Shown: piece by piece, positions 7,006 to 61,902 of the stretch
Layout of the letters: every line of letters begins with the position of its first letter
Numbering within the stretch: position 1 is the first letter of the stretch
NCBI RefSeq assembly: GCF_035474595.1
Contig: NZ_DATIND010000108.1
Coordinates: forward strand, 1 to 62,516
From: Longimicrobium sp.
Lineage (GTDB): Bacteria > Gemmatimonadota > Gemmatimonadetes > Longimicrobiales > Longimicrobiaceae
Direction: 5' to 3'
DNA: 62,516 bases
The notes under the pieces: generated by a model
The model's input: only the letters and a program-made list of their open reading frames with translations
Database searches by the model: none
Told to the model about the DNA's origin: nothing
Translations under genes and position numbers: made by a program

Positions 7006-7143
7006 AAGTCCTAAGTCCTAAGTCCTGAGTCCCAAGTAGAAAAGAGTGATGTCTCCCGTCGAGTCCGGCACCTGGCACCTGGCACCTGGCACCTGGGACT
7101 TCGGACTTAGGACTTAGGACTTAGGACTTAGGACTTGGGACTT
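7006..7143. repeat. Heptanucleotide tandem repeat tract
   Basis: Two blocks (7006-7038 and 7068-7143) of 7-bp units such as AAGTCCT, CTTAGGA and CACCTGG fill the gap between two minus-strand genes. The same heptads recur at 22727-22797, 39598-39737, 44821-44898, 61820-61902 and 62341-62378. Confidence 0.8.
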
Positions 7144-22680: not shown

Positions 22681-22797
22681 CCAGGGAACAGGTTACAGGG
22701 GACAGGGGACACGGACTGATTCGGGTCCTCAGGACTTGGGACTTGGGACTTGGGACTTAGGACTTTCGCACTCAGCACTCCGCACTCAGCACTTCTC
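22681..22797. repeat. Heptanucleotide repeats upstream of epimerase
   Basis: GGGACAG-type heptads (22681-22712) are followed by GGGACTT, AGGACTT and CACTCAG heptads up to 5 bp before the epimerase ATG. The epimerase therefore has no recognisable ribosome-binding site in its leader. Confidence 0.8.
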
Positions 22798-38625: not shown

Positions 38626-39585
38626 TCACCCCCCTTCCGCCGGCCACAGCCGCAGCCTGGCCATGTCCGCGCGGAGCTTGAGGAGCGCGGCGTCCTTCAT
38701 CTTCGCCTCCAGCATCACGTCGAACGGGGTGGGGCCGGCCTCGCGGAGGAAGTTGGCGAACTCCCACGGGTTCACGTAGTCGGCGTGCTGGGAAAGGAGC
38801 GGCGGGGCCGTCACCTCCTTCTTGTTCTTGATCACCACCCGTGAATCCATCTTCGGCGAGGAGAAGTGCACCTTCGGCGTCACCTCCGCCGGCCAGGTGG
38901 CCAGGGCGGCGCGGACGGCGTCGCGCATCGTCATCGTCCCCGGGTTCAGGAGGTGGTGCTGGTGGTCGAAGATGAGGCGCACGCCGGTCATCTCGTGCAC
39001 GCGCAGGCAATCCTGCACGGTGTAGATGGTTTCGTCGTTCTCGATCACCAGCCGCCGCCGGCCGGATTCGGAGAGGCGGGGAAAGTTCTCCGCGAATCGC
39101 GCCATCGCCGACGGCTTGTCGCCGTACGAGCCGCCCAGGTGGAGGATGACGACCGCCTCGGGGCCCTGCTCCATCGCGTCGAGCAGTTCGGCCTGCGCGT
39201 TCACGTCGGCGATGCCCTTGGCGTTGATGGCGGGGTCCTGCGCGCTCAGCAGCACGTACTGCGAGGGGTGCAGCGACAGCCGGATCCCCCGCTCGCGGGC
39301 GATGCGGCCCAACTCGCCCAGCCCCGTGCGGCACTCGGAGATCTGGCCGTGAAACTGGGGCAGGTCCGGGTGCGTGCAGTAGGGGACGAAGTCGGACGAG
39401 ATGCGGTACATCCGCACGTCGATCTCGTCGAGGTAGTCCAGGATCTGGTGCAGGTACTCCATCGACGTGCGCAGGTGCGGCCCGGTCTGCCACCGCCGCG
39501 CGTCGTTGCTCTTCAATCCCTCCCTCCCCGCCACCTTCACCGCGAACCCCAGCCGCCGCTCGACCGCGATCATCGCATCACCCAT
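38626..39585 (-). CDS. uvsE: UV DNA damage endonuclease
   Basis: A 319-residue TIM-barrel endonuclease that nicks DNA 5' to UV photoproducts and other lesions. Family blocks are clear: RRLGFAVKVAG at the N-terminus, DVRMYRISSDFVPYCTHPDL, RLSLHPSQYVLLSAQDP, ILHLGGSYGDKPSAMARF, LVIENDETIYTVQD, LIFDHQHHLLNP and VHFSSPKM. The metal-ligand His, Glu and Asp residues in these blocks are kept. The Met at 39585 is used; the Met at 39573 is equally possible. Upstream in-frame sequence is translated heptad repeat and was rejected. It lies 161 bp downstream of a photoactive yellow protein gene on the same strand. Confidence 0.92.
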   Translation of the reverse strand: MGDAMIAVERRLGFAVKVAGREGLKSNDARRWQTGPHLRTSMEYLHQILDYLDEIDVRMYRISSDFVPYCTHPDLPQFHGQISECRTGLGELGRIARERGIRLSLHPSQYVLLSAQDPAINAKGIADVNAQAELLDAMEQGPEAVVILHLGGSYGDKPSAMARFAENFPRLSESGRRRLVIENDETIYTVQDCLRVHEMTGVRLIFDHQHHLLNPGTMTMRDAVRAALATWPAEVTPKVHFSSPKMDSRVVIKNKKEVTAPPLLSQHADYVNPWEFANFLREAGPTPFDVMLEAKMKDAALLKLRADMARLRLWPAEGG

Positions 39586-39597
39586 ATGAATGGAAAA

Positions 39598-39737
39598 GGT
39601 CCTAAGTCCTAAGTCCCAAGTCCCAAGTGAGTTATGAAGACCGCCGCCCGGTTCGCCACTCAGCACTCAGCACTCAGCACTCAGCACTTGGGACTTAGGA
39701 CTTAGGACTTAGGACTTAGGACTTAGGACTTAGCACT
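39598..39737. repeat. Heptanucleotide tract between uvsE and PYP genes
   Basis: Two blocks of 7-bp units (AAGTCCT/AAGTCCC at 39598-39628, then CACTCAG and GGACTTA from 39657 to 39737) fill nearly the whole 161-bp gap. Any promoter for uvsE would have to lie within or between the blocks. Confidence 0.85.
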
Positions 39738-39746
39738 CGTCGTTCA

Positions 39747-40115
39747 TCACGGCCTCTCCACACACACCCACACCGTCTCCGTGCTGGCGCTGTAGAACAT
39801 CGAGATCACCACGTTCTTCCGGCGCCCGTCGCGGAACCGGAAGACATAGTCGAACACCGTGTGCAGGCTCTTCTTCTCCACCCCCTCCACGAAGCGGCCG
39901 TGGAACTCCTGCACCCTGGTGCACGGCGCCACCTCGTCGAAGAAGTTCTTCCCCAGCGCGTCGTCCTTGGCCACGCGGGCCAGTGCCGACTCGGTCTGGT
40001 TGAACTTCAGCACCTTGCCGTCCGGCGCCAGCTGGATCATCCCCACGGGAAGGGTGTCGAGCTCGGTCTCGGACAGCACGTCGGCTTTCTCCAGGACTCC
40101 GGCGGTTGCCTGCAT
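39747..40115 (-). CDS. pyp: Photoactive yellow protein (PAS blue-light receptor)
   Basis: A 122-residue PAS-fold cytoplasmic photoreceptor, near the 125 residues of the Halorhodospira protein. The chromophore-attachment block NFFDEVAPCTRVQEF is kept, with Cys65 equivalent to Cys69, which binds p-coumaric acid as a thioester. Glu42 matches Glu46, the proton donor to the chromophore. Tyr42, the other hydrogen-bond partner, is replaced by Phe38 (VLKFNQTE); Thr50 and Arg52 are Ala46 and Val48. The protein should still bind chromophore, but absorbance and photocycle are likely shifted. Neither tyrosine ammonia lyase nor coumarate ligase is in the window. It is transcribed toward uvsE. Confidence 0.9.
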   Translation of the reverse strand: MQATAGVLEKADVLSETELDTLPVGMIQLAPDGKVLKFNQTESALARVAKDDALGKNFFDEVAPCTRVQEFHGRFVEGVEKKSLHTVFDYVFRFRDGRRKNVVISMFYSASTETVWVCVERP

Positions 40116-40324
40116 GGGGTTCTCCCGATCGTGATTGGAAGCTCAGGGCGATGACGCCACGACGCTCGGAAACCTACGCTCCTGTCCAATGTTTGTCAAA
40201 GGATGGGGATGGACATCGAAAAACGGGGAGACGCGGGGGATGGAACCCGTTTTGCTTGTTCGGCTTCCTCCGCGCGCGCCGCCCCGGCGCGCTCGGGCGC
40301 CACACCGAACCCGGGGATGCGCCG

Positions 40325-40915
40325 ATGAGCAACGACGACCTGGACCGCGTGGTCCCGCTGGACGAGCTCGACGACTTCCGCGTGTCGCGCGACGACCCCG
40401 ATCCGCGCGGGTGGGAGGTGGTGGCGGCGGACGGCCGCAAGATCGGCGAGGTCGACGAGCTGCTGGTGGACACCGGGGCCATGAAGGTGCGCTACCTCGA
40501 TGTCGATCTGGACGACGAGATGGTGGCCGGCGAGCACGACCGCCACGTGCTGGTGCCCATCGGCTACGCGCGGCTGGACCGCGACCACGACCGCGTGATC
40601 GTGGACGAGATCACCTCCGCCGACCTGCGCGCGATCCCGGCGTACGACCACGGCCCCATCACCCGCGACTTCGAGACCTCGGTGCGCGACAGCTGGCGGC
40701 GCGACCGCGGCGACCGGCAGCGCTTCGCGGCGGCGGATGCGGACGGCGCCCCATCAAGGGAGATGCGCGCGGAGGCGCAGGATGACTTCTACTCCGACGA
40801 CTCGTTCGACGAGACGGGGTTCTGGGCCGCGCGGCGCGCCACCGGCCTGGGCGGCGCGCTGGGCGACATCGGCAACGACCCCGGTTACCCGCGCGACCTC
40901 GGCGGCCGCTCGTAG
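40325..40915 (+). CDS. PRC-barrel domain protein
   Basis: A 196-residue soluble acidic protein. Residues about 22-100 form a PRC-barrel (GWEVVAADGRKIGEVDELLV, MKVRYLDVDLDDEMV, HVLVPIGYARLDRDHDRVIV) as in the cytoplasmic domain of photosynthetic reaction centre H subunits and in many stress-related soluble proteins. A flexible, highly charged tail follows (DSWRRDRGDRQRF, AQDDFYSDDSFDETGFW). The ATG at 40325 is used because the upstream frame has no motif. No photosynthesis gene is in the window. It starts 209 bp from the divergent PYP gene, so both may share a regulatory region. Confidence 0.82.
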   Translation: MSNDDLDRVVPLDELDDFRVSRDDPDPRGWEVVAADGRKIGEVDELLVDTGAMKVRYLDVDLDDEMVAGEHDRHVLVPIGYARLDRDHDRVIVDEITSADLRAIPAYDHGPITRDFETSVRDSWRRDRGDRQRFAAADADGAPSREMRAEAQDDFYSDDSFDETGFWAARRATGLGGALGDIGNDPGYPRDLGGRS

Positions 40916-61819: not shown

Positions 61820-61902
61820 GAAAGTGCTGAGTGCTGAGTGCCAAGTGCCAAGTGCCAAGTCTTGAGTCCTAAGTGCTAAGTCCCAAGTGCTAAGTGCTGA
61901 TA
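61820..61902. repeat. Heptanucleotide tract after CNNM gene
   Basis: Eleven units of AAGTGCT/GAGTGCC/AAGTCCC/AAGTCCT type, almost without interruption, begin at the CNNM stop codon. This is the cleanest example of the family in the window. Confidence 0.85.

Follow-up and report, generated by a model that had tools for sequence, protein, structure and literature searches.

A photoactive yellow protein with Phe42 and Ala50 adjoins uvsE in Longimicrobium and may belong to a light-controlled UV-repair unit

The literature explicitly leaves open to which partner single-domain photoactive yellow proteins (PYPs) signal (PMC9664959, PMC12826048; here and below the literature is cited for its accessible parts). 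Position 42, in the Halorhodospira halophila numbering used throughout, is Tyr in 90.8% and Phe in 8.9% of 984 PYPs, and the consensus has Ala50 and Leu52 (PMC12826048). A similar share of Y42F, about 9%, spread over several branches of two clades, was reported independently (PMC9664959). When Tyr42 of the H. halophila protein is mutated to Phe, Thr50 takes over the hydrogen bond (PMC9664959); the absorption of this Y42F mutant lies at 458 nm (a value cited in PMC9062252), in equilibrium with a species at about 400 nm (PMC12826048). Light control of transcription by CarH operates through tandem 11-bp repeats, nnnnTnnACAn, which often contain the -35 hexamer TTGACA; CarH of Thermus uses three repeats, and there are reports of operators that combine one or two repeats with degenerate copies (PMC9304148). 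The LitR/CarH family controls a regulon with photolyase, and in Pseudomonas a short LOV protein serves as LitR anti-repressor (PMC9758184). In fungi, blue light induces the UV damage endonuclease UVDE via White Collar (PMC3764193). By title and abstract, no publication among the best-ranked matches of a search, which mostly left subscription literature outside, linked PYP with uvsE, UVDE, imuB, DnaE2 or photolyase, the Gemmatimonadota being included in the search.

The window, i.e. the whole stretch analysed, comprises 62,516 nt of Longimicrobium sp. (GCF_035474595.1, contig NZ_DATIND010000108.1, forward strand). The pyp gene and its surroundings are the following.

39747-40115, minus strand: pyp, single-domain photoactive yellow protein of 122 amino acids with an ATG start and F42/E46/A50/V52/C69 (reading frame, profile, alignment, model)
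40002-40004, minus strand: codon of Phe38, equivalent to position 42 (alignment)
39990-39992, minus strand: codon of Glu42, equivalent to Glu46 (alignment)
39921-39923, minus strand: codon of Cys65, equivalent to Cys69, the putative site of the chromophore thioester (alignment)
39586-39746, minus strand: pyp-uvsE spacer of 161 nt with inverted heptamer repeats, AAGTCCT/GGACTTA (folding, repeat scan)
38626-39585, minus strand: uvsE, UV DNA damage endonuclease; the reading frame opens at 39666, the likely ATG is at 39585 or 39573 (TIGR00629, PF03851)
40325-40915, plus strand: PRC-barrel gene, divergent, across the promoter from pyp (PF05239)

The gene encodes a bona fide PYP, and the match is far above chance. 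With the protein as query, phmmer retrieved 33 distinct PDB sequences (best E 4.5e-20), every one of which bears the name PYP, PPR or PYP-derived FAST. The profile TIGR02373 matched with E 1.9e-27 and 95.8 bits, short of its curated cut-off of 143.05 bits, which was reached in none of the 395 genomes of the phylum; this profile recovers only about 20% of PYP homologues (PMC9664959). An AlphaFold2 model, built from a 28-row alignment, had a mean pLDDT of 90.4 and a TM-score of about 0.9 to PYP crystals (2phy, the Y42F mutant 1F9I and others). Alignment with solved PYPs and 66 other PYP loci equated Phe38 with Tyr42, Glu42 with Glu46, Ala46 with Thr50, Val48 with Arg52 and Cys65 with Cys69. A first-pass annotation made from the letters alone had thus stated the residues, their numbers and the coordinates correctly, and its placement of the protein outside the proteobacterial set was likewise borne out. 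Glu46, the hydrogen bond and proton donor, is thus kept. The Cys69 used as a criterion in PMC9664959 is present as Cys65; Tyr42, which is absent here, is not demanded by the published definition of a PYP.

The same annotation took Phe42 as something unusual. Given 8.9% among 984 PYPs (PMC12826048) and about 9% in the second survey (PMC9664959), Phe42 is not rare and this part did not hold: it is an already known natural variant. Ala50 and Val52 were considered as special features as well and were dropped, since Ala50 with Leu52 is the consensus (PMC12826048). In our own sample Phe42 occurred in 30 of 119 non-redundant Cys69 PYPs, for which the tree implied 13 changes or more. Residue 50 in these 30 proteins was Ser in 17, Ala in 12 and Thr in one. 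The 12 with the pair F42+A50 comprised eight from the window's genus, three of Gemmatimonadaceae type (L060, L065, L079) and one from an Ignavibacteria MAG (L177). Fixation of Phe in a clade of the Gemmatimonadota, which the annotation had proposed to check, was indeed found: in the window's genus the pair F42+A50 is fixed in all eight orthologues next to uvsE (window, L042, L044, L045, L046, L047, L123, L126), while the PYP of the sister genus has Y42 and T50. The pair, and not Phe42 by itself, is what stands out. We also considered whether a hydroxyl at position 50 compensates for Phe42. Tree-corrected sign tests were not significant (median p 0.25 for Ser50 and 1 for Ser/Thr50), and the window's own group, in which F42 is paired with Ala50, speaks against the idea. 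Spectral tuning by Phe42 is plausible, and judged from the pocket residues a spectral effect of F42/A50 is likely. Because Phe42 and Ala50 leave Glu46 as the sole one of three side chains able to bond the phenolate, the dark state is expected to absorb further to the red and/or to contain an admixture of a protonated form that absorbs in the UV-A.

How the chromophore is supplied was approached through the aromatic lyases. The genome contains a single PF00221 aromatic lyase. It scored over the cut-off for HutH and carries Ser-His at what we take to be the selectivity position. The search for a tyrosine ammonia-lyase (TAL) that the annotation had called for therefore came out negative in this genome, the sole aromatic lyase being a histidine ammonia-lyase. 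Close PYP relatives with a retained cysteine, the lack of which, jointly with a lack of chromophore synthesis genes, the annotation had named as counting against it, do exist. Most PYP genomes of the phylum have one lyase each. Ser-His was found in 30 of the 31 such lyases examined in the phylum (L130 lay outside the search pattern); the lyase beside the pyp of locus L084 has His-Leu, presumably selectivity residues, too. Near pyp an aromatic lyase was present at none of 37 UV-linked loci vs 30 of 66 PYP loci of other phyla. In published pyp operons TAL is also scarce, with seven instances in 113 operons (PMC12826048). The genome has 112 matches to PF00501 (AMP-binding), many of them in megasynthases; such matches often sit in reading frames of 2,000-8,000 amino acids (e.g. 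on contigs C151, C65 and C152), i.e. the genome is rich in NRPS. Our guess is that p-coumarate comes from the surroundings, is taken up and is activated by some ligase; uptake is also considered in PMC12826048.

We then looked at the neighbours. The window's uvsE product scored 156 bits with TIGR00629, over the cut-off of 124.45. Within the family PYP was present in nine and uvsE in 14 of 21 genomes. In all nine PYP-bearing genomes (window, L042, L044-L048, L123, L126) a pyp copy immediately precedes uvsE in the same orientation; as these loci share ancestry, they represent few independent events. Three extra pyp copies exist in the family, two in genome G032, both away from uvsE, and one in G400. 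Five family genomes have uvsE without PYP, and in four of them (L124, L125, L128, L129) the PRC gene still adjoins uvsE with no pyp between. The order transketolase-kinase-PRC-uvsE is kept as a block across the family (gene calls in relatives were simple, G+C-based and served for finding neighbours only). Photolyase (PF00875 or PF04244) was detected in none of the 21 genomes, with controls positive in 8 and 3 of 14. Cys69, Glu46, Phe62, Val66, Ala67, Pro68 and Thr70 are kept in all nine uvsE-linked PYPs.

The spacers between pyp and uvsE measure 35-212 nt in the nine family loci. In the window, 148 nt of the spacer folded into a long hairpin of -76 kcal/mol (z -7.5). Strong hairpins of differing sequence were found in eight of the nine spacers; seven of these eight were folded, three as shortened pieces, with z from -1.7 to -7.5, and that of L047 was judged by eye. 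The spacer of L123, 35 nt, has no hairpin. They may be terminators, attenuators or repeats. Such a hairpin may stop transcription, so that pyp and uvsE are not necessarily co-transcribed, and uvsE may have a further promoter of its own. The heptamer repeats (AAGTCCT/GGACTTA/AAGTGCT) recur in tandem at positions 7006-7143, 22732-22793, 39657-39737 (there as part of the hairpin) and 61822-61898 of the window; the spacers of the relatives contain other repeat units. The window also holds 2.1 copies of a 178-bp unit at 394-764 (93% matches).

Upstream of pyp the alignment of the family revealed a common element, TTGACA-N5-TNNACA; a hexamer resembling a -10 box follows TTGACA at a distance of 17-18 bp. 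The corresponding features, and the regulator gene to which they led, are these.

40183-40199, minus strand: putative CarH-type operator, tandem 11-bp repeats TTGACA-N5-TGGACA with two copies of TnnACA, of which the first overlaps the -35 box (upstream alignment; consensus of PMC9304148)
40171-40176, minus strand: candidate -10, TAGGTT, 17 bp after TTGACA, aligning with the -10-like hexamers of the relatives (upstream alignment)
Contig C88 of the same assembly (G000), L242 514-1482, minus strand, also L244:6179-7411: CarH/LitR-like regulator gene (MerR_1, B12-binding_2 and B12-binding domains)

A generic promoter scan did not have the pyp promoter among its predictions. For counting we used the strict pattern T..ACA-N5-T..ACA and took the expectation from 20 Markov resamplings. 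Nine matches occurred in 246,030 bp of family sequence including the window, against 0.65 expected (range 0-2). They lie ahead of pyp in the window, L042, L044, L047 and L048, with two in L047 that form three tandem repeats, ahead of uvsE in the PYP-less L125 and L129, and ahead of the CarH-like gene (L244). Thus all nine precede pyp, uvsE or the CarH-like gene. Since the family sequences had been gathered round pyp and uvsE and were not a random set, this concentration, not the raw count, is the evidence. Outside the family three matches occurred in 649,794 bp (63 loci), none of them ahead of any pyp. Two perfect repeats are present in five of the nine pyp promoters; in L045, L046, L123 and L126 the second is degraded, and the PYP-less L124 and L128 have no tandem TnnACA repeats ahead of uvsE. 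The whole genome was scanned with TTGACAAACNTTNNNCA, allowing one mismatch at most. Three sites came up: the one at pyp, a second that precedes the ATG start codon of the CarH-like gene by 19-35 nt, and a third within a reading frame; the reversed control pattern had no match. The MerR-B12 protein has the architecture of CarH/LitR. Its gene was found through a pattern built from pyp sites, in a search that covered this genome only.

The survey was extended to the phylum. PYP was found in 52 of 395 genomes (TIGR02373, E <= 1e-9). The weak match of genome G009 was left out of later counts, and 67 pyp sites outside the window's own genome were examined; for the tree 17 identical or near-identical rows were dropped and the weak L058 was omitted. 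On this tree the Cys69 PYPs proper to the phylum fall into a single group, which comprises 42 rows (support 93/87, not starred). At 38 of the 41 loci of this clade in the phylum scan pyp adjoins uvsE, dnaE2 or photolyase, i.e. three different partner genes; the exceptions are L041, L075 and L093. In 30 loci of Gemmatimonadaceae type pyp is divergent from dnaE2, immediately in 27 and at a distance of 3.6-4.4 kb in three. A tested representative of these dnaE2 products scored above the NF004225 cut-off, and 13 of the 30 loci have imuB in the flank. At L057 a class II photolyase gene is beside pyp (TIGR00591 E 6.2e-104, below cut-off), and in the acidobacterial L238 a photolyase frame just upstream of pyp is split over two reading frames, which could reflect faulty assembly or a damaged gene. 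This split, and the PYP of L057 that is without a clear first strand, weaken both photolyase cases. In the flanks of 66 PYP loci from other phyla uvsE, dnaE2 and imuB were absent (0/66), and photolyase was present once (1/66).

A different 11-bp-period direct repeat, TTCGG-N6-TTCGG, is located ahead of dnaE2 or imuB in many of the loci L060-L092 (e.g. L069:6478, L061:8041, L067:3890) and is a candidate SOS (LexA) box of Gemmatimonadaceae. An SOS control of pyp shared with dnaE2 was considered and rejected: the repeat is close to dnaE2, not pyp, and in several loci it precedes imuB. Besides, 14 PYP-like proteins of Gemmatimonadaceae type (L059, L094, L095, L097-L107) have Cys69 replaced by Ser/Gly, together with Ala70 and Cys98, and many of them are encoded in the vicinity of a sodium:solute symporter and of a beta-helix/PA14 protein. 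Judged by these replacements they are possibly a non-photochemical offshoot. Finally, L084 and L088 represent a second PYP type in Gemmatimonadaceae, with the canonical Y42 and with a TAL-like lyase and CheW-like proteins as neighbours, which on the tree groups with PYPs of other phyla. A neighbour of theirs (cluster c39) was tried as coumarate ligase and discarded because Pfam assigned it a CheW-like domain.

We consider it somewhat better than even, at roughly 55%, that pyp belongs to a light-controlled unit for repair of UV damage which contains PYP as a light sensor. In its favour are the adjacency of pyp and uvsE, the TnnACA repeats over the -35 box, a CarH/LitR-type gene with the same repeats, the two PYP-less relatives with repeats ahead of uvsE, the lack of a detected photolyase in the family, the UV-lesion partners of the clade (38/41 loci) and the precedents in Pseudomonas and fungi. 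Against it are the four degraded second repeats, the two PYP-less uvsE genes that lack repeats, the hairpins, the missing TAL, the common ancestry of the nine loci, a CarH-like gene seen in one genome and the generic promoter scan, which did not pick up this promoter. It is rather doubtful that PYP, as a working light sensor, has its partner elsewhere and that its place ahead of uvsE or dnaE2 is inherited synteny devoid of functional meaning. With the transketolase-kinase-PRC-uvsE block conserved, one insertion would explain all cases in the family, the dnaE2 pairing is nearly one clade, and the targets described for PYPs are chemotaxis, c-di-GMP and kinases (PMC12826048). Yet synteny does not sit well with three different UV-lesion partners within one clade (38/41 loci), with their near absence from PYP loci of other phyla (uvsE/dnaE2/imuB 0/66, photolyase 1/66) or with a light-type operator in the pyp promoter.

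The other two explanations concern the sensor and the switch. PYP may no longer bind p-coumarate and be a non-photochemical PAS domain, or take another thiol-reactive ligand; the missing TAL, the lyase counts near pyp (0/37 against 30/66) and the sister group of 14 loci that has lost Cys69, by which photochemistry appears to have been lost within the phylum, point that way. We hold this to be unlikely, as the seven residues listed above (Cys69 and Glu46 among them) are invariant in 9/9 uvsE-linked PYPs, most published pyp operons lack TAL, too (7 in 113; PMC12826048), and the 112 AMP-binding matches leave a coumarate-CoA ligase possible. The promoter repeats, in turn, could be the site of another regulator, e.g. 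a LexA-type SOS repressor, so that DNA damage instead of light would switch the unit on. Here uvsE is a damage gene, and the SOS-like TTCGG-N6-TTCGG marks dnaE2/imuB promoters in Gemmatimonadaceae with the same period. The family repeats, however, agree with the CarH unit TnnACA as published, the -35 being contained in a repeat (PMC9304148), and the nearest match in the genome is just upstream of the CarH-like gene, which makes an SOS-type switch quite improbable.

In the light-controlled unit that we favour, a CarH-type B12 repressor would sit on the -35 box of the pyp-uvsE promoter in the dark. Light would free the promoter, and PYP and UvsE would be made. UvsE would then repair UV photoproducts in a family in which photolyase was not detected. 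PYP would add a second sensor, for blue/UV-A, and modulate this response through contact with another protein, similar to the short LOV protein that acts on LitR in Pseudomonas (a contact with the CarH-like protein is a guess), its dark state shifted as expected from Glu46 bonding the phenolate alone. A wider proposal is possible but tentative: the PYP clade of the phylum might be a visible-light sensor of UV-lesion repair that travels with the repair gene of the respective lineage (uvsE where photolyase is absent, ImuB/DnaE2, class II photolyase). In Longimicrobiales it would have been inserted into an older CarH-controlled uvsE promoter, such that two photoreceptors govern one enzyme, and F42/A50 would shift PYP towards the UV-A-absorbing, protonated form. 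The light-controlled unit itself suggests that visible light lets these bacteria prepare for DNA damage by sunlight; the physiological reason could be that visible light announces UV. The annotation had noted neither the neighbouring uvsE nor the promoter. A pairing of PYP with UV-repair genes under a light-type operator would offer a concrete, testable partner for single-domain PYPs.

Compared with the PYP family (PAS_PYP of PMC9664959; TIGR02373), the protein shares fold, length, Cys69, Glu46 and most pocket residues. It differs in its score below the TIGR02373 cut-off, in F42+A50, which leave no hydroxyl donor beside Glu46, and in adjoining uvsE, a pairing that does not appear in the accessible parts of PMC12826048 and PMC9664959. 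With the CarH/LitR regulons (PMC9304148, PMC9758184) the promoter has in common the 11-bp TnnACA repeats over the -35, and the genome a MerR-B12 protein. The targets in Pseudomonas include a DNA repair gene, photolyase (PMC9758184), whereas at this locus pyp and uvsE are the putative targets, the second photoreceptor is PYP instead of a short LOV protein, and the operator is predicted from sequence. Similar to the short LOV-LitR pair of Pseudomonas mendocina, a single-domain blue-light protein of PAS type is without an output domain; there it is linked to a LitR-type regulator of class II encoded by an adjacent gene (PMC9758184), while the CarH-like gene of this genome lies on a different contig from pyp. 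In the fungal control of UVE1/UVDE a blue-light receptor of PAS/LOV type governs the same repair enzyme, and the White Collar complex itself binds the promoter (PMC3764193), a task that PYP and a B12 repressor would share here. If this is true, uvsE joins the genes driven by bacterial light receptors, in parallel to the light-induced UVDE of fungi.
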